From a virus: a DNA stretch of 21,674 bases. Each line of letters begins with the position of its first letter. Positions within the stretch are counted from its first letter, which is position 1. Positions 407 to 15,219 of this stretch are shown piece by piece. The position numbers and the translations under genes are program-made. The stretch lies in IMG/VR virus record IMGVR_UViG_3300009419_000120, positions 1 to 21,674 of that record; one strand, 5' to 3'. The notes under the pieces were generated by a model that saw only the letters and a list, made by a program, of their open reading frames with translations, was not told the origin of the DNA and did no database searches.

Positions 407-709
407 TTAGAATCCCAGAGTGGTACGAAGTGTAGAAATTTTTGGTAGATAAATTTTGGTACCCACTGCAAAATCCCACGGTGGAGAAGTAAGTGTATTG
501 GGATTTCGTTGGTAAAACACCCACCACAAGCCACCGTTATCATACAAGTCAAATGCCAATAGATCCGGGCGGTATTGATAAGTCATATTGATTACCATGA
601 TAGCATCATCAGGCTCTTTGGGTATAGGACGATTGTTCATCACGTCCAGATAAAATTGAACAAAACCAGTTGTGTAATACGGGCTAGTCGATATGTACGT
701 TGCTGCCAT
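407..709 (-). CDS. 53: Baseplate wedge protein, gp53-like (short form)
   Basis: A 100-residue protein. The central stretch, YRPDLLAFDLYDNGGLWWVF followed by a QRNPNTL segment and a C-terminal VGTKIYLPK, resembles the conserved LysM-like core of gp53 baseplate wedge proteins of T4-like marine phages. In T4, gp53 helps join wedges into the hexagonal baseplate. T4 gp53 is about twice as long (196 residues), so this is a minimal version that keeps the core. The start codon overlaps the last base of the upstream 1221-residue structural gene, and the next gene follows after 3 bases, so translation is probably coupled. The assignment rests on recognised motif similarity and on the structural neighbourhood. 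A LysM-like tail protein of another name remains possible. Confidence 0.7.
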   Translation of the reverse strand: MAATYISTSPYYTTGFVQFYLDVMNNRPIPKEPDDAIMVINMTYQYRPDLLAFDLYDNGGLWWVFYQRNPNTLTSPPWDFAVGTKIYLPKISTLRTTLGF

Positions 710-3700
710 TACCAGAATCCTCCTCTCAATAGATTACCATTGGCGTAATTTTTAACACTGAACTGCTGACTCACTTGAGCTCGACTCTGTATAGGTAATA
801 ACGAAATGTTCATGTCCATTTTAACTGGTACGTAGGTTGGTTGATTCAGTCCCAGTGTTGGTGGGGTAGGAGTCCAACTGCCTTGAGCTCCTTTGGTAAT
901 ACCTTGGCTGCTGAACAAGTTTTTCAATCTTCCAGCTGCTGAACTAAAAGAATTTGTTGCTGCAGACTGTCGAGCTCTTCTAGACAACAAATCTGCTCCG
1001 TTAATATTGATACCTCTAGTTCGTATGTAATCAACATCCTTGGGCAAGCTGTAGGTAAAATTGGTTACTACGCAAGGATGTCCATTGAATTGATATTCGC
1101 CTAATCCTGTTAGGTAAACCAGTGGTGGTGGTGTTCCTCTTTGTGCGTCTTGTCCATAAAACATTTTGGTCACGGACTTGAAAAAGTGTATTACTGCCAA
1201 CAAGTAGTTAGCTTCTTGTGTGTCTTGTGCTGTAAAAGTGGCCTGGAGGGTCACTGCTTCAACAGAGCTGCTTTTGTAAAAATAACTCTTGTAGTTGCTG
1301 TGTGTCAACCCCACTGTATCGTAGTCTGCTTTGTAATTTGTATCAATTTGCGGTGTATACGGAAAAATTACGCCGTCAGTTTCTTGTAACGGTTGTAATA
1401 TACCAGCAGTACCTTGACCATCGTTGCCCTGTGGGGAATTGTACAAATAGTCTGCGCCCGGGGCCAAACTTAATTTTACACGCCAATCTCCATTGTCTGA
1501 AAACTTGTCTTGAGCCTGTAGTGTTGCTTGTTGTTGAGCTTCAGCAAGTGTGCTTTGTTGATTGGTTTCAAAAGGATCTTCGCCACCTGCATCAGGTCCT
1601 TGAACATTGGCTACATCGTCGGCGTTGAACGTTGCTGCCTGGTCTAAAGCTTCTGTTTCAGTTAATCCTTGACTTACATAGCTACCTGTTTTGTTGTCAT
1701 AAACTGCATATGTGCCGTCATCATCTTGAGTGACAATATAGCGGCCGCCTGCTTGATCAGCTGGAGTACCTGCTATTAAATTTTGTGGTAAATCAGTACT
1801 GATATTGTTAAGGTCATTTTGTTGTGCATCGTAAAGGCTCTGGTCTTCAAATGCAGCAACTCTAGCATCTGATTCAGACAACCCAGTGCTTACAAATTGC
1901 CCAGTCTCGTTGTCAAATACTCCCCAGCCGCCAGTTTCGTCAGACTCAACTGCAACATATCGTTCGCCATTGTATCCTGTAGTGATACTAGGATCTGGTT
2001 GTTCACTGATTGCCAGTTCTGCGTCAGCTTGGCTTTGTTCTTCAAATGCAGAAACATTGGCCTCTGCTTCTGACAAGCCAGTTTTTACAAAAGTTCCTGT
2101 TGTGTTGTCCCATACTCCGTATGTTTGAGTTTCTGGATCAAACGTGGAAACATATTGATTTCCTTGAGTTGGAGTACCAGTGGTTTCAACCACAGCTGAA
2201 TCTACATTAAGTTCTCCGCCGGCTGGGTCATTGTCTATTGCATCTGCTGTAATAGCATCTGCATTGTCTTTGGACAAACCTGTTTGTATAAAACTACCTG
2301 TTCTCTGATCCCATACTCCGTATGTTTGAGTCTCTGGATCAAATGCTGTGACAAATGCTTGATTGGTAGGAGTACCTGGTGTGAACACCACTGGTTCAGA
2401 AGTGTTTAGTGCAATACCTTTGACTGCTAGATCTTGAGCAAATGCTTCTGCCTCCGCTTGGTCCAGTCCAGTGGTAACAAGGCGTCCAGTATCCAAGTTC
2501 CATACATCGTATGTGCCTGTTTCCGGATTGAGAATTTCTCCAAAATTTTGTCCGTCTACATTTGGATATCCGCCAGCGTTGGTAACTGGTTGATCTTTTG
2601 CAAGCACAGATGATAGCAGCAACACTGTACCAATCTTTGTAGCTGTTTCATCAACAGGTGGCGGTAATACTGTACTGATCTGCGGAGTTGTTTCATCAAC
2701 AGGTGGCGGTAACACTGTGGTGGTGGTAGTAACAGCAGCAGTCACAATAGCAGCAGCGCCTATAATGGGTGCTAGTTGCAATTCAGTTTGATTTGTTAGT
2801 GCAGCATCGTTGAGATAGTTAACAGTTGTTGGCAAAGATGCGCTGGCAGTGGTGTTGTTTGCTTCTCCACTGCCGGTGTTTACTGTGACTGTTTCTGACA
2901 CAACCACTGGGATTGCTGCAGCAACTGTCTCTGCATTCAATGTCTCAACTGTGGTGTTGAGTTTATTAATTGTTTCAGTTCGAGCAGCATCTTGGGCAGG
3001 TGTGAGCAGTTGTTGTCCTGCTCTTCGGCGCACAAGATTACTAGGATTGGCTCGAACAAAAGTGTTTAACGCTTGTTGCGTAGTAGCAGCAGCGGCAGCA
3101 GCGGCGGTGTAAGCAGTTGATGTTGGGTTTATCGCCACAGTATTAACTGTGTTTGTACTGGTCTGATTTGTGGGGTTTGACCCAATTCGGGTTGGGCCTG
3201 TAACAAAGCCGCCTCCTACTACAACTCCGTTGCGTCTGTCTTCCTCGGCCCGTGCTGCTGCCCATTTTTCAGGTTCAAGTATTCGTTCAATCCAACTGTT
3301 GGCTGTTTCGTTATTCCAACCTGTTTCTGCCAGTAGCTTGGCATATTCAGCTGGATTAGTTCGAGCCTGAACTGCTGAATTAAACGAATCCTTTGTGGAG
3401 CCTTGATATGCTGGCCAGTTTTTATCATTCCATGGCTCTTCCCGGCCACCGGCTCTGTTGGTAACCTCTACTGCTGTGCCTACTATACTTGGGTTGCTGT
3501 ATGGGTCAGAAATTCCTTGTATGGCCCAGAGGTCTGCAATAGTACCCGGTCCAACAGGATTTGGCTGACTGCCTTGCCACTGAATAAATTTAGCCAGTTC
3601 TGAGTCTGGGCCGAATGTAACAGTCCCTTCTTTGGTGTTGACCACTTGATTAGTAGGGGTAGGCGCTAGTATTTCAACTTTTCGAAATCCTGTGTCTACC

Positions 3701-4374
3701 TGTATTGTAGCACCAGATTCCACAGCAATGCTGATAGGCACCGGCTGTCTTGGCAAGCCTTGGAAATATTCTGTGATGTCAATATCTCCACGATTTGTGG
3801 TAAGATAAACCCGACCATCAGGGCCTGTTCCAGTGGTTGCAATCACGTCTTTGCCATCAGGGCCGCCAAGGCCATTGGCAATGGCTGCTCTTCGAACAGC
3901 ATCGCGAGCAGCTTGAGTTGCAATTTGGGATGCTTCAAAAAATTCAGGAGTACCCTGAACAAACTGCAACCTTCCTTCGGCATCCAAACTGCCCGGAACT
4001 ACAAGTCCTTGGGGCAACCCGTCTTTTGCCACCTGATAGGAGTAGGCGTTGCCGTACTCAGGATATGCTCGTGCTAAATCTTCTGCACTATACTTGTTGA
4101 GTATCAAATTCAAATAGCCTTGAACCTGAGGGCCGCTACCCACTTCACCGCGAATCACGGCACTGATATCCACAGTATCAGTAGTGGAAGAAGCATTCAA
4201 AGTAGCAGTTGAACCAGAGGCTGGCAACGGCTCTGGTGCTCGGTCAACGCTGGCAGGACTAGGCGGGGGTGGTGGAGGTGGAGGTACTTGTGGATTAGAC
4301 GCAGGCGGCACTGGATCATCTACCCAAACTTGATATGAATCCCCTTCGCCTGTATATGCAGTAATGTATGCCAT
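709..4374 (-). CDS. Large virion protein with internal repeats and a baseplate-like C-terminal domain
   Basis: A 1221-residue protein. Near the N-terminus, at about residues 31-38, is a run of eight prolines. A low-complexity Ala/Thr/Asn/Val region follows, including two 15-residue TVLPPPVDET repeats. Then come five diverged modules of about 65-70 residues, near residues 615, 678, 744, 815 and 885, each with a Y-x-V-[WY]-D-x-x-TG-x-[FYV]-x-x-x-GL core. From about residue 957 the sequence is well ordered (DWRVKLSLAPGADYLY, later FFKSVTKMFYGQD and GLGEYQFNGHPCVVTNF). That part resembles C-terminal segments of baseplate or tail-tube-associated proteins in marine T4-like phages. It lies directly upstream of the gp53-like gene. 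ATG at 4374 is preferred because a late-type element sits 24 bases upstream, matching two other genes here. A GTG at 4383, four bases after GGAG, is the alternative. The repeats may form an extended, evolvable surface; that is inference. Confidence 0.8.
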   Translation of the reverse strand: MAYITAYTGEGDSYQVWVDDPVPPASNPQVPPPPPPPPSPASVDRAPEPLPASGSTATLNASSTTDTVDISAVIRGEVGSGPQVQGYLNLILNKYSAEDLARAYPEYGNAYSYQVAKDGLPQGLVVPGSLDAEGRLQFVQGTPEFFEASQIATQAARDAVRRAAIANGLGGPDGKDVIATTGTGPDGRVYLTTNRGDIDITEYFQGLPRQPVPISIAVESGATIQVDTGFRKVEILAPTPTNQVVNTKEGTVTFGPDSELAKFIQWQGSQPNPVGPGTIADLWAIQGISDPYSNPSIVGTAVEVTNRAGGREEPWNDKNWPAYQGSTKDSFNSAVQARTNPAEYAKLLAETGWNNETANSWIERILEPEKWAAARAEEDRRNGVVVGGGFVTGPTRIGSNPTNQTSTNTVNTVAINPTSTAYTAAAAAAATTQQALNTFVRANPSNLVRRRAGQQLLTPAQDAARTETINKLNTTVETLNAETVAAAIPVVVSETVTVNTGSGEANNTTASASLPTTVNYLNDAALTNQTELQLAPIIGAAAIVTAAVTTTTTVLPPPVDETTPQISTVLPPPVDETATKIGTVLLLSSVLAKDQPVTNAGGYPNVDGQNFGEILNPETGTYDVWNLDTGRLVTTGLDQAEAEAFAQDLAVKGIALNTSEPVVFTPGTPTNQAFVTAFDPETQTYGVWDQRTGSFIQTGLSKDNADAITADAIDNDPAGGELNVDSAVVETTGTPTQGNQYVSTFDPETQTYGVWDNTTGTFVKTGLSEAEANVSAFEEQSQADAELAISEQPDPSITTGYNGERYVAVESDETGGWGVFDNETGQFVSTGLSESDARVAAFEDQSLYDAQQNDLNNISTDLPQNLIAGTPADQAGGRYIVTQDDDGTYAVYDNKTGSYVSQGLTETEALDQAATFNADDVANVQGPDAGGEDPFETNQQSTLAEAQQQATLQAQDKFSDNGDWRVKLSLAPGADYLYNSPQGNDGQGTAGILQPLQETDGVIFPYTPQIDTNYKADYDTVGLTHSNYKSYFYKSSSVEAVTLQATFTAQDTQEANYLLAVIHFFKSVTKMFYGQDAQRGTPPPLVYLTGLGEYQFNGHPCVVTNFTYSLPKDVDYIRTRGININGADLLSRRARQSAATNSFSSAAGRLKNLFSSQGITKGAQGSWTPTPPTLGLNQPTYVPVKMDMNISLLPIQSRAQVSQQFSVKNYANGNLLRGGFW
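2110..2343 (-). repeat. Near-identical 33-base direct repeat inside the large virion gene
   Basis: The 33-base segments at 2110-2142 and 2311-2343 differ at a single base and lie 201 bases (67 codons) apart. Both encode FDPETQTYGVWD in modules 2 and 3 of the five-module array. The other modules are clearly diverged, so this pair looks like a recent duplication or gene-conversion event. Confidence 0.9.
2645..2718 (-). repeat. Short tandem repeat encoding TVLPPPVDET
   Basis: Two 29-base segments starting at 2645 and 2690 differ at one base and are offset by 45 bases, so they encode two consecutive 15-residue units beginning TVLPPPVDET. They lie in the low-complexity stretch just before the five-module array and probably act as a Pro-rich spacer. 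Confidence 0.85.
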
Positions 4375-4398
4375 TTTATTCACTATTCTCCGATATAT

Positions 4399-4487: not shown

Positions 4488-5408
4488 ATGGCCACCATTG
4501 CAGACAAACCCGCACCAAGAGTGAACTATCTCAACAACAGAGATATTCTCAAAGAGATTCATCACAGTAAAAACACCTACTGCTGGTACAAGGACAGAGA
4601 CCTAGATCATCAATATGATCTTATTTTGCCCAGCATAGACAAGATCAATGTAAGAACCATAGTAGAAGCACGTAAAAATCGTGCAGATCGCATCAAACGC
4701 GAAACCGGCGAAGTGATCGATCAAAAGAAAATTTCCAATCAAGATCTAGTTTTTCGCATCACATGCTGGGACCATATTCCCATGGCTCCAAAGAAGATTA
4801 CCAAAGCCGAAGCCAAACGCAAAAAACTTGAAGATATTTTTGAGTTTGACGAGCCAGAAGAAGATCCATTGGTAGATTTAATCGACAACCCAATTATAGA
4901 CAAAACACATATTCGATTAAACTTTCCACCGTTTGAGCACTACAGATTGGATGATGACAAAAAACCTTTTATAGTTGGGCGTAGTCATTGGACAGGCGAT
5001 CTAGAAACTGGAGAGTTTTCAAAAGAGCACGGCAAGATGACCAAAAAACTAGCACTGATGTTTATGAAGCTGTGTGAGCGATATGCCACAAGATCAAACT
5101 GGCGCGGATATACCTACAACGAGGAAATGCGCGGACAAGCTCTACTACAACTCAGTCAAATTGGTCTTCAATTTGACGAATCAAAAAGTCAAAACCCCTT
5201 TGCTTACTACACCGCTGCTATTACCAACAGCTTTACTCGTATTCTCAACATTGAGAAAAAGATGCAAAACATCCGTGATGACATCCTGGAAATCAACGGA
5301 TTGAATCCTTCATGGACACGTCAAAACTCTGGCGCCAAAAGCATGGCCGCCATGTCCGGACCGGTTGTGTCTACCTTGGATGATGTAGTACAATCAGTAG
5401 ATGAGTAA
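4488..5408 (+). CDS. 55: Late-transcription sigma factor, gp55-like, with long N-terminal part
   Basis: A 306-residue protein. Its C-terminal half, from about residue 190, has the sigma region 2-like pattern of gp55: Y-N-E-E-M-R-G-Q-A, then FDESKSQNPFAYYT and an N-S-F-T-R-I helix. In T4, gp55 binds host core polymerase and, with gp33 and the gp45 clamp, recognises TATAAATA promoters. T4 gp55 is 185 residues, so the first 120 or more residues here are extra. They begin with an NYLNNRDILKEIHHSKNTYC segment like the amino end of gp55 from other marine T4-like phages, then a charged Lys/Glu-rich stretch (about residues 100-135). The start follows an AGGAG site and a sigma-70-type promoter. The stop overlaps the gp47 start by 8 bases, so the two are translationally coupled. 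The sigma call is fairly firm; the role of the extension is unknown. Confidence 0.82.
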   Translation: MATIADKPAPRVNYLNNRDILKEIHHSKNTYCWYKDRDLDHQYDLILPSIDKINVRTIVEARKNRADRIKRETGEVIDQKKISNQDLVFRITCWDHIPMAPKKITKAEAKRKKLEDIFEFDEPEEDPLVDLIDNPIIDKTHIRLNFPPFEHYRLDDDKKPFIVGRSHWTGDLETGEFSKEHGKMTKKLALMFMKLCERYATRSNWRGYTYNEEMRGQALLQLSQIGLQFDESKSQNPFAYYTAAITNSFTRILNIEKKMQNIRDDILEINGLNPSWTRQNSGAKSMAAMSGPVVSTLDDVVQSVDE

Positions 5409-6417
5409 TTTATTTAAAAAAGCTGCAATCTTTACCGACATCCACTTTGGTCTCAAGTCCAACAGTGTTCTGCACAACGAAGACTGTTTGTCTTTTGTCA
5501 AGTGGGCCACTGAGAAAGCACAGGAACAAGGCTGCGAAACTGCCTTGTTTCTGGGAGACTGGCATAATACACGGGCCAGCTTGAATATTGTTACCTTGAA
5601 CTACAGCCTTCGTGCATTAGAGCACCTGAATGCCAATTTTCAACATGTGTATTTTATTCCAGGCAATCACGATCTATACTATCGCGATAAACGAGATATC
5701 CAAAGCGTGGAGTGGGCCAAACATCTGCCCAATGTAGAAATCTGCAATGATTGGTTCAGCAGCGGTGATGTGGTCATTGCTCCTTGGCTGTGCGGAGATG
5801 ACCACAAACGTATTCCTAAACTAAAAGGCAAGTACATGTTTGGGCACTTTGAGTTGCCGGGATACTTGATGAATGCCATGGTGGCCATGCCCGATCATGG
5901 AGAAATTCAACGAGATGATTTTCACGGATTTGAACATGTGTTTACTGGCCACTTTCACAAGCGTCAGACCAAAAAGAATATTACCTACATCGGCAATGCG
6001 TTCCCGCACAACTACGCAGACGCCGGCGATGATGAAAGAGGGCTTACTGTACTAGAATGGGGCAAAGACCCTGTGTATCATGCCTGGCCAGATCAACCAA
6101 CCTACAGAGTTTATGGGCTTGCAAATCTTATCGACAACGGTGCCACTCTGTTGAGACCCAAAATGCATGTGCGTGTGAATCTGGACATTGAAATCAGTTA
6201 CGAAGAAGCCAACTTTATCAAAGAAACTTTTATTCAGCAATACAATCTGCGAGAGATGTCTCTTATTCCCAACAAACACAGCGGTGTTGAAGAAGACATG
6301 GCGCCCGGTGAAGTCAAGTTTGAATCAGTGGATCAAATTGTAACTGACCAGCTCACCAACATCGAATCTGAGTTCTACGACAACAAACTACTGTTGAAAA
6401 TTTATCAGACGTTATGA
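5401..6417 (+). CDS. 47: Recombination endonuclease subunit gp47 (Mre11/SbcD-like)
   Basis: A 338-residue calcineurin-type metallophosphoesterase, almost exactly the length of T4 gp47 (339). The metal-binding motifs are all present: FTDIHFG (D13, H15), GDWHN (D53), GNHD (N89, H90, D91), H149 and GHFHKRQ (H174, H176). With gp46 it forms the phage Mre11-Rad50 complex, which resects DNA ends for recombination-dependent replication and helps degrade host DNA. It starts inside the end of the gp55 gene and its stop overlaps the next start by 4 bases (ATGA). Its partner gp46 is not adjacent: two unrelated genes (6414-8221) lie between. The function assignment is secure. Confidence 0.95.
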   Translation: MSNLFKKAAIFTDIHFGLKSNSVLHNEDCLSFVKWATEKAQEQGCETALFLGDWHNTRASLNIVTLNYSLRALEHLNANFQHVYFIPGNHDLYYRDKRDIQSVEWAKHLPNVEICNDWFSSGDVVIAPWLCGDDHKRIPKLKGKYMFGHFELPGYLMNAMVAMPDHGEIQRDDFHGFEHVFTGHFHKRQTKKNITYIGNAFPHNYADAGDDERGLTVLEWGKDPVYHAWPDQPTYRVYGLANLIDNGATLLRPKMHVRVNLDIEISYEEANFIKETFIQQYNLREMSLIPNKHSGVEEDMAPGEVKFESVDQIVTDQLTNIESEFYDNKLLLKIYQTL

Positions 6418-7292
6418 TTTATTGTGTGTGGTACCCAAGTGGAGGATTTGGACACTTTGTTAATGCTGTTTTAACTTTACACGGTGATAATTTTGTGCGC
6501 CCTAAAAAATCTTTAACATTTTCACCAACTGGCGACAGTCATAGTTTAGATTTAATCTTGCCTAAATACTTTCACGAATGTTGGACAGGTGGGCTTGAGT
6601 TTGTTGACAATCAAAACTATTGTGTGTTAGTTGACAACGGAATTAATAACACAAACAGTGGTTTTAAAAGCACTTTCCCCAATGCTACTGTGATTAAAAT
6701 TTGTTACTCTGATTACAGTTGGCCTGTGGTGGCCCGCACCATGATTGAAAAGGCTATGCAAAGTAGCATTGAAGAACAACTGCCAACTGATCAATGGGAC
6801 TCAACAGAGCCATGGACACGTCGTGAAAAATACTTTTTGTATTTGCGAGATCACCCACTTCGTTATGCTTGGAATTCGCAGAACAAACACACGCTACTTG
6901 ACACTGAACTAGATGTGACTGAATTATATCAGGACTATGAAGAGTGTCATTCTGTAATAAATGCTATTGCAAAAACTGAAGACTTTTGTACTCTTTGGAA
7001 AGAATGGCGGTTGGCAAATTCTAAATATATTGATCCAGTGATAACCGCAAAGACTGTATTGTGCCAGACAGGGATCAACGACTCTGTAGACTTGACACAT
7101 ATAACAGACATTTGGACTCAAGCAGTAGTGTACTATTACATTTGGGTAAGGTACAGAATTGAAGTTCCGCACAATGATTATGCTAACTGGTTTACCAACA
7201 CCTCTGACATTGTTAAAATGTTAAAGGAACACAGGGTAGATTCTACAGTTAATGAAAATTTACCAAACACTATAAAGAAAATTAAACTATGA
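6414..7292 (+). CDS. Conserved phage protein of unknown function between gp47 and the binding protein
   Basis: A 292-residue protein starting MIYCVWYPSGGFGHFVNAVL, with a later WTRREKYFLYLRDHPLRYAW block and many Trp, Tyr and His. It resembles uncharacterised proteins of aquatic T4-like phages. The Gly-rich N-terminus and overall layout faintly recall P-loop sulfotransferases or sugar-modifying enzymes, but no complete Walker motif is present, so no function is assigned. It has no signal peptide or membrane segment and is probably cytoplasmic. It overlaps gp47 (ATGA, 4 bases) and the following gene (4 bases), so all are translated from one message. By eye its bases are more AT-rich than gp47 and gp46, consistent with separate acquisition. 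Confidence 0.75.
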   Translation: MIYCVWYPSGGFGHFVNAVLTLHGDNFVRPKKSLTFSPTGDSHSLDLILPKYFHECWTGGLEFVDNQNYCVLVDNGINNTNSGFKSTFPNATVIKICYSDYSWPVVARTMIEKAMQSSIEEQLPTDQWDSTEPWTRREKYFLYLRDHPLRYAWNSQNKHTLLDTELDVTELYQDYEECHSVINAIAKTEDFCTLWKEWRLANSKYIDPVITAKTVLCQTGINDSVDLTHITDIWTQAVVYYYIWVRYRIEVPHNDYANWFTNTSDIVKMLKEHRVDSTVNENLPNTIKKIKL

Positions 7293-8221
7293 AAAGACTT
7301 TTATCACTATTGCTAGCAACAATTTGTTTTGTTGCTGTGGCCCAGCCAGTTAACACACCTAAAAAAATTATTACATCGTTCCCGGTTGGGTCTGGGCCAG
7401 ATGTTCTGGCTAGAAAGATTGCTGAAAATCTATCCGAACAATGGAAGCACCCTGTGATCGTTGATAATCGTCCTGGTGCCAATGGAACAATTGCAATGGA
7501 TGCTTATCTAGCTGAATCGGCTGCTCCTCAAAGCATTTATTTGGCTCAAAACGATAATTTTATATCGCATCCTGTTTTGTACAATACTCAAAAATACTTG
7601 CAGTCAATGAAGTTGCTATCCCCAGTGTTCAAAGTTGATTTGGTATTGATTGCATCTCCCGAAGTAACAGATTGGCAGTCTCTTGTTGCATTGTCTAAAC
7701 AACGTGTATCGTTTGGGTCTTGGGGAGTTGGTTCCGGTGGACACATTGCTGGTTTAGAACTTGCCGAGCACCTTGGAGTTCCTGCAGTACATGTGCCATA
7801 TCGCGATTACAGCCAATGGTTCATTGATGTTAGTAGCAAGCAATTACTTTATAGTTTTAGCACTCTGGCATCCACTGCCAAACTGGAAAAAGCTGGCAAG
7901 ATCAAATACATAGCATTCAATTCCAACAAAAGAGATCCTGATTATCCCAATGTTCCTACATTAAGAGAGTTAACAGGAAAGACAATTGGTAGTCAACAAT
8001 GGATTGGCTTTTATATCCATGCTGATACTCCCAACTCAATAACTAACAAACTACATCGAGATATCCAAACTGTAATTAAATCTGCAGCAATACAAGAGAC
8101 CTTTGATTCATTGAACTATCGTATGTGGTTGGCTACCCCAAGCGAGTTTGAAAAACAGATTTACACAGATCGTGAAACTTTTTTACGGGCTTATAATAGA
8201 TTCAACATAACAGTCAAATAA
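7289..8221 (+). CDS. Periplasmic substrate-binding protein of the Bug/TctC family
   Basis: A 310-residue protein, close to the usual 300-330 of this family. Residues 1-18 form a signal peptide (Lys-Arg, a Leu-rich core, AVA before Gln19) with no lipobox, so a soluble periplasmic product is expected. Family hallmarks are the FPVGSGPDVLARKIAENLSE segment, PVIVDNRPGANGTIA, a GSWGVGSGGHIAG ligand loop, VPYRDYSQ and DPDYPNVPTLRE near the C-terminus. Such proteins bind carboxylates (citrate and other di- or tricarboxylates, aromatic acids, amino acids) and feed TctAB transporters or sensors. No TctA or TctB is encoded here, so it would have to work with host partners. It is translationally coupled to the preceding gene and lies inside the gp47-gp46 operon. 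All conserved blocks are intact, arguing against a decaying passenger. The ligand cannot be read from sequence. Confidence 0.92.
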   Translation: MKRLLSLLLATICFVAVAQPVNTPKKIITSFPVGSGPDVLARKIAENLSEQWKHPVIVDNRPGANGTIAMDAYLAESAAPQSIYLAQNDNFISHPVLYNTQKYLQSMKLLSPVFKVDLVLIASPEVTDWQSLVALSKQRVSFGSWGVGSGGHIAGLELAEHLGVPAVHVPYRDYSQWFIDVSSKQLLYSFSTLASTAKLEKAGKIKYIAFNSNKRDPDYPNVPTLRELTGKTIGSQQWIGFYIHADTPNSITNKLHRDIQTVIKSAAIQETFDSLNYRMWLATPSEFEKQIYTDRETFLRAYNRFNITVK

Positions 8222-8256: not shown

Positions 8257-10338
8257 ATGATCGAAATTAAAAATCTCACCGTAAAAAACTTTATGAGTGT
8301 AGGCAATGCCACTCAAGGCATTGACTTCAATAGACAAGATTTAACATTGGTGCTAGGAGAAAACCTGGATCTCGGCGGCGATGGTAGCCGTAACGGCACA
8401 GGCAAAACCACTATTATCAATGCACTTAGCTATGCTCTATATGGCCAGGCGTTGAGCAACATCCGCAAAGACAATCTTGTGAACAAGACCAATGGCAAGA
8501 ACATGCTAGTTGGATTGGATTTTGTTGTCAACGGAGTTGAGTACAAAATTGAACGTGGGCGTAAACCCAACGTGTTGAGATTCTATGTCAATCACGAAGC
8601 ACAAGCAGTAACTGACGAAGCTCAAGGAGACTCTAGAGAGACACAGGATGCTATTGAACGTCTAATGGGAATGAGTCATGACATGTTCAAACACATTCTG
8701 GCATTGAACACTTATACTGAACCTTTTTTGAGTTTGAAAGCCAACGAGCAACGTGCTATTATTGAGCAGTTGTTGGGTATTACATTGCTGAGCGAAAAGG
8801 CTGATCGTATAAAAGAGCTCAACAAACAGACCAAAGATGCTATTAGTCAAGAAGAATTCAGAATCCGAGCTGTACAAGAAGCCAACAAACGAATTGAAGA
8901 ACAAATTGAAAGCTTGCGCCGGCGGCAGGTACTGTGGAAAAACAAGCATGATAGCGATGTTGCTGCATTGGTTGCCACTTATAACGATCTTGTTCAAATT
9001 GATATCAAACAAGAACTGCAGGCTCACCGAGATCTAGCTGTATGGAGCGATCAAAAGAAACAACAAGATACCTACAACTCGTTGATAGCTCGTAGTACAG
9101 CTTGGAAACAAAAGCAATATGCTGAATGGCAAGCTGCTGGCCGTGCATACCTTGACAAGAATAGAATCAGTATCGAAGCTGAGTTGGCTGCATGGCATGC
9201 GTTAACGGCTCACAATCAAAAGGCCAAAGACATTGCTGAGCTCCAAAAGCTGATTGATCGCTGCGTTCAAGACGAGCAGAAAGAAGTCAAGCTGGTAGAA
9301 AAGTTGCGAGCTGAGATTCAAGAACTCCAGAATCACAAGTGCTATGCATGTGGACAAGACTTTCACGATGCCAATCACGAAAGTGTGCTGGCTTCAAAAG
9401 AAAAAGCCCTGCAAGAAGCTGCCTTACAGTCCTTGGCCACAAACACACAGTGGATTGAACATACTGATGCGCTGCTCAAGCTAGGTGAGTTGGGCATAAA
9501 GCCCGCTACACACTACAACACCGAAGCTGAAGCAATTCGGCATGCTGGCGAGTTGGCTGGTTTGAAGCAGACCATGGACACCAAAGCTGCAGAAGTTGAT
9601 CCTTTTGCTGAACAACTGGCTGAATTAACTGAAGTTGTTCCCGGGCCACAACCAGCCACACACTACGACACCGAAGCTGAAGCCATCAAACACTCCAGTC
9701 AAGTGGACAGTCTGTTGCAACAGATTGCTGCTCGCGACGGTGAAGTGGATCCGTATACTGAACAAATTGAAGACATGACTCAACAGGCTTTGCAAACAGT
9801 TAGCTATGATCATCTCAACGAGCTGACTCGAGTTCAAGAACACCAAGACTTCTTGCTCAAACTGTTGACTTCCAAAGATTCGTTTGTTCGCAAAAAGATC
9901 ATTGATCAAAACCTCAGTTATCTCAACAGCAGACTCACACACTACTTGGATCGAATTGGACTACCACACACTGTGAAGTTTCAGAATGACTTGAGCGTGA
10001 GCATTGAAGAACTAGGACGCGAACTGGACTTTGACAACCTAAGCCGTGGTGAACGCAATCGACTGATTCTTTCAATGTCATGGTCATTCCGCGACGTATG
10101 GGAAAGCCTGTATCATCCTATCAACTTGTTGTTTATCGACGAATTGATTGACAATGGACTGGACAGTGCAGGTGTTGAGAATGCGCTGGGATTGTTGAAG
10201 AAGATGAGTCGCGAACGACACAAGAGTATCTGGTTAGTAAGTCACCGAGAAGAACTTGCCGGACGAGTAGAGAACATACTCAAAGTTGTTAAAGAAAACG
10301 GCTTTACAAATTACAGCACAGACATAGAATTTGCTTAA
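8257..10338 (+). CDS. 46: Recombination ATPase subunit gp46 (Rad50/SbcC-like)
   Basis: A 693-residue SMC-like ATPase, the partner of gp47. Visible motifs are Walker A GSRNGTGKT (43-51), zinc hook CYAC (C362, C365) at the tip of a long coiled coil (about 165-555), signature LSRGER (595-600), Walker B LLFIDE (D628, E629) and the H-loop (H663). T4 gp46 has 560 residues; part of the excess is a tandem duplication of a 50-residue segment (416-465 and 466-515) on the C-terminal coiled-coil arm just after the hook. A 35-base gap with no clear ribosome binding site separates it from the Bug/TctC gene. Its stop overlaps the stop of the converging minus-strand gene by 4 bases, and no terminator hairpin is seen between them. 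Confidence 0.95.
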   Translation: MIEIKNLTVKNFMSVGNATQGIDFNRQDLTLVLGENLDLGGDGSRNGTGKTTIINALSYALYGQALSNIRKDNLVNKTNGKNMLVGLDFVVNGVEYKIERGRKPNVLRFYVNHEAQAVTDEAQGDSRETQDAIERLMGMSHDMFKHILALNTYTEPFLSLKANEQRAIIEQLLGITLLSEKADRIKELNKQTKDAISQEEFRIRAVQEANKRIEEQIESLRRRQVLWKNKHDSDVAALVATYNDLVQIDIKQELQAHRDLAVWSDQKKQQDTYNSLIARSTAWKQKQYAEWQAAGRAYLDKNRISIEAELAAWHALTAHNQKAKDIAELQKLIDRCVQDEQKEVKLVEKLRAEIQELQNHKCYACGQDFHDANHESVLASKEKALQEAALQSLATNTQWIEHTDALLKLGELGIKPATHYNTEAEAIRHAGELAGLKQTMDTKAAEVDPFAEQLAELTEVVPGPQPATHYDTEAEAIKHSSQVDSLLQQIAARDGEVDPYTEQIEDMTQQALQTVSYDHLNELTRVQEHQDFLLKLLTSKDSFVRKKIIDQNLSYLNSRLTHYLDRIGLPHTVKFQNDLSVSIEELGRELDFDNLSRGERNRLILSMSWSFRDVWESLYHPINLLFIDELIDNGLDSAGVENALGLLKKMSRERHKSIWLVSHREELAGRVENILKVVKENGFTNYSTDIEFA
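9502..9801 (+). repeat. 46: Exact-length 50-codon tandem duplication in gp46
   Basis: Two units of 150 bases, 9502-9651 and 9652-9801, encode PATHYNTEAEAIRHAGELAG and PATHYDTEAEAIKHSSQVDS at their starts, with VDPFAEQ and VDPYTEQ at the same later position. The first 30 bases of the units are nearly identical and the rest has diverged while staying exactly in register. A run of 50 residues with Pro at each boundary would extend one arm of the coiled coil asymmetrically or form a small lobe beside the hook. Confidence 0.9.
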
Positions 10339-10773: not shown

Positions 10774-12291
10774 TTATTGTACTGCGATCGGTATTCTAAG
10801 GCCAGTTTTATAACGGCCCTGTTGTAGCTTGTCATATGCTTCTTTGAGTTTGAGTAATTGGCTGTCGCCGTTCCAAATTGTGTATCCAAGATCCATTAAT
10901 ACTTCTTGCATTTCAATGCGCCTGCGAGCACGTTCACGAAAGTCCAGTCCTGGATTTGTGTGCATGATCCAATTGAATCCTGTAACTCGATTACCTGTGG
11001 GGTCTTCTATGCCCAAGCTAACACTTTCGTCGTACAATGGCGTACCTTCGTCAACACTGGCTGTGGTCCCTAGATTTACTCCATATATGGTTCCGTCTAG
11101 TGCATACTTTTGATACTTGCGAAACTGTTCTATCCCTTGTGTATGATCTTCTTGAGTTTCTGTGGGGTATCCAACTATCATCAAGAAATAACAATTCATG
11201 TTGTTGCGATGCATCTGTTCCAGTGTGAAATCCATGTCTGCATTGCTAAAGCCTTTCTTCATGTGATCTCTCACACTTTCACTTAGACTTTCAACCCCCA
11301 TTGCAACTCCGTTCATGCCTGCTCGAGCAGCAAGTTCATAATCAGCAGCTTTCATGCTGGCAGCATCACGCACAATAAACTGGCCGCCCCAATTGAAATA
11401 GCGATCTGGTAGATTGTTTGCTTGGTAATAATCAACTAGACATTGACAAAACTCGCGAAAGCTTTTCATACTGCCGTTGATTAGACTATCAGTAAACCAA
11501 AAGTTTTTTACATTGTATTTTTGATAGTGGTGTATAAACTCGTCGGCTACACTGCGGCCGCTGCGGTACTTGTACTTTTTCCAGGCTGAATGTATGTCAC
11601 AAAAACTACATTTACGCACACATCCTCTACTGCTGGTCACTGGTATTTGCGGTTGCCCTGTACTCCAAAGATAATTTTTGTTTATTACATCATCATAGTT
11701 GGGATATGGAACAGCGTCAAGATCATCAATCTGCACAAAATCATCATTGTTTATTCCTGGGTAGGTAACATTGCCGCTTAACAATTCTAGCAGTGCGCGA
11801 TCGCCCTCCCCTCGAATGTAATAGTCAGTTAGATCGTTGTGTACCAGCCAACTTCCAAAGTCGTTTTGTTTTGCTGCAATACCGTTGCTGCTGAGTCCTG
11901 CACCTCCCACAATTATTTTGTTGTGGAATTTTGGCCGCAACTTGGACAACAACATTTTGGTAAAAATTTGACACTGGAACGTAAACACACTAATTCCTAG
12001 CCAAGTGGGATTGGTTGCAACAATATAATCCACGCACGTATCAATGTACTGATCCAGTATAGTCTGGGTAGATTGACTCAGTGTCCCTGTGTGGTCATTC
12101 AACGAAAAGTATTGATCTAGTTCTTGCTTTGTGTTATTATTGTTGTTACACAGTTCTGCTAGTTCTAAATTAAAATCTCGCACAGACGCAGTGTATCCGT
12201 TTGCTTCGCAAATACCTTTGAGTAGGCTGGTTGCAGCAGGGGGATAAATTAAGGATATCTGTGGAACATTTACTAGCAAAACATCTAACAT
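10774..12291 (-). CDS. Radical SAM enzyme with an N-terminal B12-binding-like domain
   Basis: A 505-residue enzyme. Residues 1-180 match the cobalamin-binding-like domain of the B12-dependent radical SAM class: MLDVLLVNVP at the start, PPAATSLLKGICEANGY, IIVGGAG and YIRGEGDRALLELL. The radical SAM core carries C224-x3-C228-x2-C231 (GCVRKCSFC), which ligates the 4Fe-4S cluster and cleaves S-adenosylmethionine. Core landmarks NFWFTDSLINGS, GMNGVAMGVESLSE and CYFLMIVGYPTET follow. Members of this class often carry out methylations or ring rearrangements on unreactive carbons. The canonical DxHxxG cobalamin motif is not obvious, so cobalamin may not be bound. It diverges from a second radical SAM gene across only 19 bases. 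The substrate cannot be inferred. Confidence 0.88.
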   Translation of the reverse strand: MLDVLLVNVPQISLIYPPAATSLLKGICEANGYTASVRDFNLELAELCNNNNNTKQELDQYFSLNDHTGTLSQSTQTILDQYIDTCVDYIVATNPTWLGISVFTFQCQIFTKMLLSKLRPKFHNKIIVGGAGLSSNGIAAKQNDFGSWLVHNDLTDYYIRGEGDRALLELLSGNVTYPGINNDDFVQIDDLDAVPYPNYDDVINKNYLWSTGQPQIPVTSSRGCVRKCSFCDIHSAWKKYKYRSGRSVADEFIHHYQKYNVKNFWFTDSLINGSMKSFREFCQCLVDYYQANNLPDRYFNWGGQFIVRDAASMKAADYELAARAGMNGVAMGVESLSESVRDHMKKGFSNADMDFTLEQMHRNNMNCYFLMIVGYPTETQEDHTQGIEQFRKYQKYALDGTIYGVNLGTTASVDEGTPLYDESVSLGIEDPTGNRVTGFNWIMHTNPGLDFRERARRRIEMQEVLMDLGYTIWNGDSQLLKLKEAYDKLQQGRYKTGLRIPIAVQ

Positions 12292-12310
12292 AAAGTATTT
12301 AACGGGCTCA

Positions 12311-13417
12311 ATGCAAGGATTTAAATTAACAAGTGTGACTGAATACCAATTGGAGATTACCTCTTATTGCAACGCCTCTTGTCCTCAATGTCCTCGCAAC
12401 AACAACGGACAGGGAATCAATCCATACTTGCCGTTGAATCACTTGAGTCGTGATGTTATCGATCAAGCGTTTTCAGCAGAACTATGTTCTGCTCTTAGAC
12501 AAGTTTTCTTCTGTGGCAGCTACGGTGATCCGATCATGCACCCAGACTTTTTAGATATCTTACGAGACTTTAGGCAAAAGAATCCCACACTGTGGTTGTA
12601 CATACATACCAACGGCGGAGTACATGAACCAGACTACTGGCGCGAGATTGCCAAGATCATGAACGGCCACGGCCAAATTGACTTTGGTATAGATGGACTT
12701 GATGATACTTTACATTTGTACAGAAAAAATGTAAAATACAACAAAGTCATTGACAATGCCACTGCATTTATTGCTGCAGGAGGTCGAGCACAATGGAACT
12801 TTATTGTGTTCAAACACAATCAGCATCAGGTACAACAGGTACAGCAACTGGGAAAAGAATTGGGATTTTTCAACGTGTTGATTCGAAAAACTGGAAGGTT
12901 CATGAATCATTCTACTCTAGAGGAAATGCCTGCTTGGCCCGTTGCAGGTACAGACTTTGCACTAGAAGTACCCACAGATGATCAGTATCGAAATCAAAGC
13001 ATGATGTTCTTGCCCAAGCTCAAGGAACAATATGCCAATATCAAAGAATACTTTGACACCACTCCTATCAGTTGCGATGCATTGTTGGGACACAAAGTAT
13101 CAATCACTGCACAAGGACTGGTATTGCCTTGTAACTTTTTCAATCACAACTTGTATGATGCAAGATTTTACAACAATGCACAGCCCGGGGCACATGCATT
13201 GGCCAATGTGAACGGAAACAATCAAGTTCGTACATTTTTAGAAACTCACGGACTTGATAACTTAAACATAAACTATCGCAGTTTGCAGGAAATTTTTAAC
13301 AATGCATTCTGGCAAGATCTAGTTGAGTCATGGAGCAATTCCAACAGATTGTTTGAATGTGCAATGACGTGCGGATCAAAATTAACCAAGGTCTGGGATC
13401 AAGGAGGATCACGATGA
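12311..13417 (+). CDS. Radical SAM enzyme with a SPASM/twitch-like C-terminal cysteine region
   Basis: A 368-residue protein. The 4Fe-4S motif C20-x3-C24-x2-C27 (CNASCPQC) lies in the usual place after a strand reading YQLEITSY. The following FFCGSYGDPIMHPDFLDILR and HTNGG match the radical SAM barrel, as does DFGIDGLDDTLHLYRKNVKYNKV. The C-terminal part has further cysteines (C255, C274 in VLPCNFFNH, C350, C354) that could hold one or more auxiliary Fe-S clusters as in SPASM or twitch enzymes. Known relatives modify peptides, sugars or aminocyclitols. Its stop overlaps the dehydrogenase start by 4 bases, so the two are coupled. No clear ribosome binding site precedes ATG 12311; the start is supported by the motif position. 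Confidence 0.88.
   Translation: MQGFKLTSVTEYQLEITSYCNASCPQCPRNNNGQGINPYLPLNHLSRDVIDQAFSAELCSALRQVFFCGSYGDPIMHPDFLDILRDFRQKNPTLWLYIHTNGGVHEPDYWREIAKIMNGHGQIDFGIDGLDDTLHLYRKNVKYNKVIDNATAFIAAGGRAQWNFIVFKHNQHQVQQVQQLGKELGFFNVLIRKTGRFMNHSTLEEMPAWPVAGTDFALEVPTDDQYRNQSMMFLPKLKEQYANIKEYFDTTPISCDALLGHKVSITAQGLVLPCNFFNHNLYDARFYNNAQPGAHALANVNGNNQVRTFLETHGLDNLNINYRSLQEIFNNAFWQDLVESWSNSNRLFECAMTCGSKLTKVWDQGGSR
13401..13407 (+). promoter_or_regulatory. Strong ribosome binding site of the dehydrogenase gene
   Basis: AAGGAGG ends six bases before ATG at 13414. It lies within the last codons of the radical SAM gene and sets the dehydrogenase start at 13414 rather than at the upstream in-frame ATG at 13357. 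It is one of the strongest such sites in the window. Confidence 0.85.
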
Positions 13418-14004
13418 ATATATTAGTAACCGGCGGCAATCGAGGATTGGGCAAGCACATTGTTGAAACCTTCAATGCAGATAGCTGCCAACGCAGCAAC
13501 AACTACAACATTACCAGCGACCATGACATCAAGTTGATAGCAACTCGCAGCCTGGAATATGATGTGTTTGTCAACAACGCATTCGACGGTCCGCCGCAAG
13601 AGTCTTGGGCCAATTTTGCACAGATAAACTTGTACATAGCTGTGTACGATGCATGGAAAGCAGCCGGCAAACATGGGCATATTTTCAATATTGGTTCAAT
13701 TGGCGAAAAAACAATTGTTGCGCCCGAGCCCAGGTTTGAAACTTATAGAATCAGCAAGGCTGCATTGGCGCATGCCAGCAAGCAAGGCACACAAGCATTC
13801 AAACAAAATCATGTGCTATTTAAAACCACATTGATCAGCATTGACCGATTAGACACAGAACTCAGCCGCAGCAGACCAAATTGGACTGGCAATGGCATTA
13901 ACTTAAACGACATCACCAATTTTATTCAATACGCTACTGCAGTGAGTGCAAATACTGCGGTAGAAGAGGCAACATTTTATTGTAATCTAGACTTCAAGGC
14001 ATAA
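13414..14004 (+). CDS. Short-chain dehydrogenase/reductase (SDR family)
   Basis: A 196-residue Rossmann-fold oxidoreductase, shorter than typical SDRs (about 250). It has the nucleotide-binding TGGNRGLG (6-13), NNA (54-56), the catalytic Ser95 in FNIGSIG and the YxxxK pair Tyr111/Lys115 in YRISKAAL. The active site is therefore complete. The missing length is in the C-terminal substrate-binding part, so a small or unusual substrate is possible. It is coupled to the preceding radical SAM gene by a 4-base overlap, which suggests that the two act on one pathway, for example radical-based oxidation followed by a ketone/alcohol step; that is inference. Confidence 0.9.
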   Translation: MNILVTGGNRGLGKHIVETFNADSCQRSNNYNITSDHDIKLIATRSLEYDVFVNNAFDGPPQESWANFAQINLYIAVYDAWKAAGKHGHIFNIGSIGEKTIVAPEPRFETYRISKAALAHASKQGTQAFKQNHVLFKTTLISIDRLDTELSRSRPNWTGNGINLNDITNFIQYATAVSANTAVEEATFYCNLDFKA

Positions 14005-14883: not shown

Positions 14884-15219
14884 TTAGAAGTTGTCTGGAT
14901 AGTCTCTAAACAATGCATGTTGTATATTGCCTTTGACGAATTGATTGAAGCTTTTGTGTTTGGTTTCTAATTCACCTTCTAAGGGTGCTACACGACGAAA
15001 TGCGCTGTCCATCTGCGCCATGTCCTGAAACTCCATTAGTATCATGAATTCGGGCATGTCGGGTATGCTACGAAATCCCATCTTGCAACGTGTGATCCTA
15101 TAGGATTCCATTTTGCCTTCAGACACCAAGTGTTCAAAGAAACTTTTCATGTTGTTGACCCAATCAATGTCAGAGATGTCGCCTTCTTTGTCGGCCCAGA
15201 TTGTGTATAAGTCTGCCAT
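14884..15219 (-). CDS. Small conserved protein, probably alpha/beta (resembles DUF6614-type proteins)
   Basis: A 111-residue protein starting MADLYTIWADKEGD, with YRITRCKMGF, EFMILMEFQDMAQMDSAFRR and a C-terminal HALFRDYPDNF. The alternating strands and helices suggest a ferredoxin-like or dimeric alpha-beta-barrel fold. The layout, especially the LYxIW start, the DxxQMDxAF helix and the ALFRDYPD end, recalls a family of bacterial proteins of unknown function that I know as DUF6614; this is from memory and unverified. It is the last gene of the minus-strand operon led by gp26, 6 bases after its neighbour. No function is assigned. Confidence 0.75.
   Translation of the reverse strand: MADLYTIWADKEGDISDIDWVNNMKSFFEHLVSEGKMESYRITRCKMGFRSIPDMPEFMILMEFQDMAQMDSAFRRVAPLEGELETKHKSFNQFVKGNIQHALFRDYPDNF

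Follow-up and report, generated by a model that had tools for sequence, protein, structure and literature searches.

The analysed stretch of DNA, hereafter the window (21,674 bases; IMG/VR virus record IMGVR_UViG_3300009419_000120), carries at positions 7289..8221 on the + strand a complete gene for a TctC/Bug-family periplasmic solute-binding protein of 310 aa, placed between two recombination genes of a jumbo phage. We consider it probable that the phage has adopted this TctC, and that the protein is exported through the Sec pathway and captures a carboxylate, probably an aromatic or ring-cleavage acid, feeding it to the TctAB permease of the host during infection. The direct basis of this reading consists of the protein family, the fold, an all-phage clade, an insertion site shared with other phages, the enzymes encoded by neighbouring genes and purifying selection in relatives.

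The window is a fragment of a giant-phage genome, and its source is a T4-supergroup jumbo phage. The window encodes a late sigma factor, the nuclease subunits gp47 and gp46, a baseplate protein of T4 type and a probable tape-measure protein that carries a lysozyme. Among cultured phages, gp47 and gp46 have their nearest relatives in jumbo phages such as PA5oct (43-49% identity). The gp55-like late-transcription sigma factor (4488..5408, +; phrog_12791, E 5e-74) heads an apparent transcription unit. The gp47-like (SbcD) recombination nuclease subunit (5401..6417, +; phrog_100, E 8e-57) and the gp46-like (SbcC) subunit (8257..10338, +; phrog_77, E 1e-101) border a gap that holds orfA (6414..7292, +) and then tctC. 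gp47 and orfA overlap by 4 bases (6414-6417), and orfA and tctC share the 4 bases ATGA at 7289-7292, so that the overlap of tctC with a phage neighbour, already noticed in the sequence-only reading, is real. A cargo gene without a recognised family, orfA had no match in Pfam or PHROGs; a fold search returned weak P-loop/sulfotransferase-like matches, none at E <= 0.001. Its homologues occupy the same site in 13 relatives. A promoter and terminator scan was uninformative, promoter-like sites being no commoner than in shuffles, and the putative operon status of tctC is taken from the gene layout only. Elsewhere in the window, downstream of gp46, two radical-SAM genes and a short-chain dehydrogenase-like gene lie at 10774-14004, the second radical-SAM gene and the dehydrogenase-like gene travelling together in many relatives. 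On the - strand, 14884-15219 encodes a 111-aa DUF6614 protein that keeps about 79-90% identity in many relatives, a level comparable to gp47, and 709-4383 encodes a protein of 1,224 aa that has no Pfam match and contains several imperfect copies of a repeat of the type FDPETQTYGVWDxxTGxFVxTGLSExxA.

The tctC frame runs from ATG to TAA without internal stops. Its product scored 123 bits against PF03401 (cut-off 27, E 1.7e-35) over profile positions 2-249 of 274; no PHROGs family was found for it. By sequence, the best solved chain was Bug27 (2qpq, E 3e-29, 27-28% identity), followed by BugD and the terephthalate-binding protein. The AlphaFold2 model (pLDDT 75.6, weaker in domain 2) had Bug27 as its closest structure in Foldseek (E 4e-19, TM 0.79), and VIA-align gave Z 22-26 for TctC/Bug entries against at most 13 for every other fold, in agreement with the two-domain TctC fold. 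Judged by family score and predicted fold, the protein is an intact TctC/Bug solute-binding protein, which bears out the earlier description of a complete gene of this family. The N-terminus (MKRLLSLLLATICFVAVA, followed by QP) has a clear signal-peptide pattern by eye and forms a helix in the model, and residues 1-18 (7289..7342, +) are annotated as a predicted Sec signal peptide. All family blocks had also been claimed, including the motif VDNRPGANG. This motif is present (aa 58-66; 7460..7486, +), with N60, P62, G63 and G66 invariant in the phage copies, but the first carboxylate pincer loop, SFPVGSGPD (aa 30-38; 7376..7402, +), departs from the family pattern: FPVGSGPD replaces the usual PFxAGGxxD, with F, the first G and D kept and the second G changed to S. 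Residues G34, S35, G36, P37 and D38 of this loop, for which the role of the motif is taken from PMC5812351, are invariant in the nine aligned phage copies. Hydroxyl residues may stand in at such positions of the pincer motif, and in known TctC structures the first pincer loop holds two waters that bridge to the ligand carboxylate (PMC5812351). A probable second pincer loop region, FGSWGVGSGGHIAG (aa 142-155; 7712..7753, +), was placed by alignment to Bug27 and BugD; S144, W145, S149 and H152 are invariant in the aligned phage copies.

To place the gene among related phages, 80 gp47 relatives were taken from IMG/VR, and both gp47 and gp46 were present in 77. The two genes are adjacent (<=12 bases) in 29 of the 77, and in the other 48 an insert separates them, the longest measuring 2,541 bases; on this sequence comparison, the gap is a cargo hotspot. 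The inserts include radical-SAM, AMP-binding, GDSL-like (by eye) and orfA-type genes. Used alone as a query against viral contigs, the window TctC had no matches, whereas a profile of two sequences (the window TctC and the L008 copy) recovered the clade members, and an oxygenase search added two. Overall, a TctC of the window type lies in the same slot in 11 other IMG/VR contigs from many samples (L008, L009, L115, L116, L117, L120, L121, L122, L125, L137 and L138). These represent about nine phages, L008/L009 and L120/L121 looking like repeats. The TctC of L125 is truncated by the contig end and absent from the tree below, and the gp47 side of L117 lies beyond the contig end. One clade member, L118/L119, is located outside the slot. 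Among 50,697 phage records, the TctC query gave only weak matches, to two unannotated fecal records, and therefore cultured phages do not show the trait; TctA and a protein with an SGGSDS motif, both described below, had no match in these records. A phage-wide trait was rejected, as TctC was not seen in isolates.

We infer the export, ligand class, permease partner, timing and benefit of the window TctC as follows. The protein would be made inside an infected Gram-negative cell and exported by the Sec pathway. In the periplasm its two pincer loops would catch a small carboxylate, probably an aromatic or ring-cleavage acid. Once loaded, the protein would pass this ligand to the host TctAB; a phage TctA may be the recipient in two relatives. 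The infected cell would thereby gain carbon or a precursor. Related phages would add an oxygenase, a carboxylate-activating ligase or both to process the acid, and such cassettes would be swapped between phages at the gp47-gp46 cargo slot.

A host permease must be assumed in this scheme, because TctA was missing in 15 of 16 records searched and TctB in all 19 searched. Comamonadaceae-type genomes have from 12 to at least 150 TctC matches apiece, and orphan binding proteins that share permeases would therefore be normal in such genomes. Two relatives, L102 and L135 (contigs of about 160 kb), encode a TctA permease subunit (PF01970, 173 bits; L102 10058-11386, L135 8001-9329), which is 90% identical between them; after it come genes for a divergent TctC and then for an SGGSDS-motif protein. 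The phage genes flanking this set also border TctC in other relatives. The protein next to TctA showed no clear join to TctC in a profile comparison, but a broader profile joined them at E ~1e-7, above 200 shuffles. Use of a permease by the window TctC, proposed in the sequence-only reading, appears more plausible given these phage-encoded TctA genes. Among 50 related virus records, 11 have PF03401, with at most two copies per record; the copies outside the window clade are divergent and lie beside SGGSDS-motif genes, small conserved genes without a family and AMP-binding ligases. The L137 record (G193, 337,119 bases) holds five PF03401 TctC-family genes in several kinds of neighbourhood. The SGGSDS-motif family (about 360-430 aa, PP-loop-like by eye) recurs beside TctC with ends that often overlap, and was found in L102, L103, L106, L107, L111, L114, L125 and L323; three of its proteins tested against Pfam had no match. 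DctP-type (TRAP) solute-binding proteins also occur (L103 6336-7310, L107 6832-7773, L108 9377-10408, L323 2471-3418), and three of the four genes adjoin TctC (L323 by eye). They seem to have no signal peptide, and a cytoplasmic location would be odd.

Delivery to a permease is not the only use that a cell could make of such a protein. Like BctC of Bordetella, which contacts both a permease and a sensor kinase (PMC5812351), the phage TctC might display its bound carboxylate to a sensor kinase or chemoreceptor of the host, and regulation or swimming, rather than uptake, would then be altered. The window tctC is indeed without an adjoining permease gene. Nevertheless, the genes next to TctC in relatives, namely the oxygenase, the ligase and in two contigs TctA, fit uptake and chemistry, and we regard a sensory role as unlikely.

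The partner genes in the slot bear on what happens to the acid. In the window, neither an oxygenase nor a ligase adjoins tctC, and orfA is its only companion. In the relatives, TctC is followed by an AMP-binding (adenylate-forming) ligase in L008/L009, L120/L121 and L122, and preceded by one in L117. The alpha and beta subunits of a Rieske oxygenase come directly after TctC in L115 (6942-8679) and L116 (3852-5589), and the order ligase, TctC, oxygenase alpha and beta is found in L137 (a 337-kb contig; oxygenase 5989-7727) and L138 (5989-7742). L125 has a radical-SAM gene, an SGGSDS-motif gene and TctC. The best solved match of the L115 oxygenase alpha subunit was salicylate 5-hydroxylase (7c8z, 552 bits). 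The best 80 genome matches of the L115 oxygenase were betaproteobacterial where named, mostly from Comamonadaceae, and 58-62% identical, which hints at the donor group and possibly at the hosts. In the oxygenase cassettes, neither a ferredoxin nor a reductase gene was seen. The position of TctC beside a salicylate-5-hydroxylase-like oxygenase or a ligase suggests that these phages aid the uptake of aromatic acids by the infected cell.

The same partners could serve a phage-made product in place of host catabolism: the imported carboxylate would be activated and attached by phage enzymes to a nucleotide, lipid or glycan. The ligase starts at the very end of TctC (overlap of 4 bases in both L008 and L120, and of 1 base in L122), SGGSDS-motif genes overlap or lie next to other phage TctC genes, and the hotspot contains radical-SAM and other enzyme genes, all of which would suit such a route. 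Its end product, the target of the transferase and a complete route are not identifiable, though, and several of the neighbours have no family and were read by eye. We hold it improbable.

We constructed a maximum-likelihood tree from the phage TctC proteins and 57 bacterial proteins. The phage TctC profile initially had no match in bacterial genomes; genomes were then chosen through the oxygenase scan and searched with the profile. The window TctC falls within a nine-row, all-phage clade of complete copies with support 100/100, and other phage copies sit on long branches. This clade groups with a Comamonadaceae subfamily whose pincer loop is mostly of the G[SG]GP[DE] type, among bacterial rows picked by score from Comamonadaceae-type genomes, outside which a closer bacterial relative could exist. 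On this sequence comparison, the window TctC is of bacterial descent and phage-retained.

The bacterial sister subfamily offers a view of the probable ligand. A match to an aromatic catabolic enzyme was found within about 7 kb of TctC in 21 of 28 sister loci and in 3 of 14 control TctC loci, a small set that mostly shares its genomes with the sister loci (Fisher p 0.002). The enzyme panel was built mostly from three sister loci, which favours them, and some matches are weak (27-32% identity); with the source loci of the panel removed, the proportion was 18 of 25 (p 0.003). The comparison of bacterial neighbourhoods covers one family. The clearest sister loci are protocatechuate 4,5-cleavage clusters with LigAB and LigK. 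The terephthalate-binding protein has an aromatic ligand. According to PMC11452294, Bug27 and Bug69 bind quinolinate in vitro with submicromolar affinity. Because of the sister loci, the cassette oxygenase and the ligands of Bug27 and the terephthalate-binding protein, an aromatic acid appears to be the likeliest ligand of the window TctC, which probably narrows the ligand class to aromatic carboxylates, beyond what the sequence-only reading had expected.

With Bug27 as the closest solved relative, one could also suppose that the phage TctC takes up pyridine carboxylates such as quinolinate and nicotinate for NAD synthesis in infection. The identity to Bug27 is low, however, the sister subfamily lies among benzenoid catabolic genes, and the related cassettes hold the salicylate-5-hydroxylase-like oxygenase, and we give this idea little credence.

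A phage clade under purifying selection had been named in advance as a sign of an adopted function, and both parts were found. Pairs of related phage TctC genes are under purifying selection, with dN/dS of 0.05-0.13 (L120/L122 0.08, L120/L008 0.12, L115/L116 0.05); the values were 0.11 for the TctA pair and 0.02 for the L115/L116 oxygenase. No rate is claimed for the window branch, whose nearest relative is 39-40% identical, with a dS of 1.6 to L117 and synonymous sites near saturation. Between L120 and L122, TctC (87%) and the ligase (82%) are more similar than gp47 (68.5%) and gp46 (73%), indicating that the cassette has passed from phage to phage. These data leave little room for the view that tctC is a host gene in a tolerant recombination slot from which the phage gains nothing. 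The slot does take a wide range of unrelated genes, 29 of 77 relatives have nothing in it, and GC3 is lower in the window tctC and orfA (0.31 and 0.34) than in gp47 and gp46 (0.49 and 0.44). By contrast, dN/dS is low in the phage pairs, frames stay intact across 33-57% identity and undisrupted in all 11 further contigs, partner genes recur, and the TctC-ligase pair moves as a unit, making passive cargo very improbable. An assembly chimera or bacterial contamination, conceivable given the extreme abundance of TctC genes in the likely host bacteria, was rejected with near certainty: the gene is neither unique to this contig nor at an assembly junction, 11 other contigs from many samples have a TctC in this slot between gp47 and gp46, and a phage homologue of orfA, 81% identical, lies at the corresponding site.

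Taken more broadly, the data raise the tentative possibility of a modular aromatic-acid system in aquatic jumbo phages, in which one or more TctC proteins, in some phages with TctA, a salicylate-5-hydroxylase-like oxygenase or an adenylate-forming ligase, are exchanged as cassettes in the slot of the recombination-nuclease genes. If true, infecting phages would draw on aromatic acids, either as a source of energy or to make a product of their own. Phage nutrient genes to date mainly concern phosphate, photosynthesis and nucleotides, and here an uncultured jumbo phage group repeatedly encodes the putative capture of organic acids and, in some members, their oxidation or activation. Should the proposed function hold, viruses would be direct participants in the cycling of aromatic carbon that comes from plants and humic matter. 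Because the slot and cassettes recur, this reading is testable, and the phage TctC is a natural experiment on the role of orphan TctC proteins, an open question in Burkholderiales.

Compared with known systems, the window protein resembles the TctC/Bug proteins Bug27, TphC/TBP and BugD in family score, fold, both putative pincer-loop regions and predicted signal peptide. It differs in being borne by a jumbo phage in the gp47-gp46 slot, in its GSGPD loop 1 and in its distance from Bug27. An orphan TctC is itself normal in Bordetella and other Burkholderiales (PMC5812351). Cyanophage PstS, a phosphate-binding protein and phage auxiliary metabolic gene, is likewise a lone phage-encoded periplasmic binding protein with a presumed host-permease partner (PMC6359870), but the phage TctC belongs to another family and ligand class, is multi-copy in some genomes, has oxygenase or ligase partners and in two relatives is accompanied by a permease subunit. 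NagGH salicylate 5-hydroxylase of Comamonadaceae is a close counterpart of the oxygenase in L115, L116, L137 and L138; unlike NagGH, the putative phage oxygenase directly follows TctC, and it is absent from the window. In the open-access literature, phage TctC genes and TctC-oxygenase or TctC-ligase cassettes are unreported, subscription papers and preprints being outside this scope. The nearest precedent found is the tctA domain match on a SUP05 viral contig, likewise a TTT-transporter gene in a virus, reported as a putative viral auxiliary metabolic gene by Roux et al. 2014; in the available text it is a single permease domain match on a contig from non-reference methods, with no TctC, cassette or recurrence described (PMC4164917). 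Phage-encoded binding proteins are thus known from PstS, while the TctC family, its multiplicity and its cassettes appear to be new.
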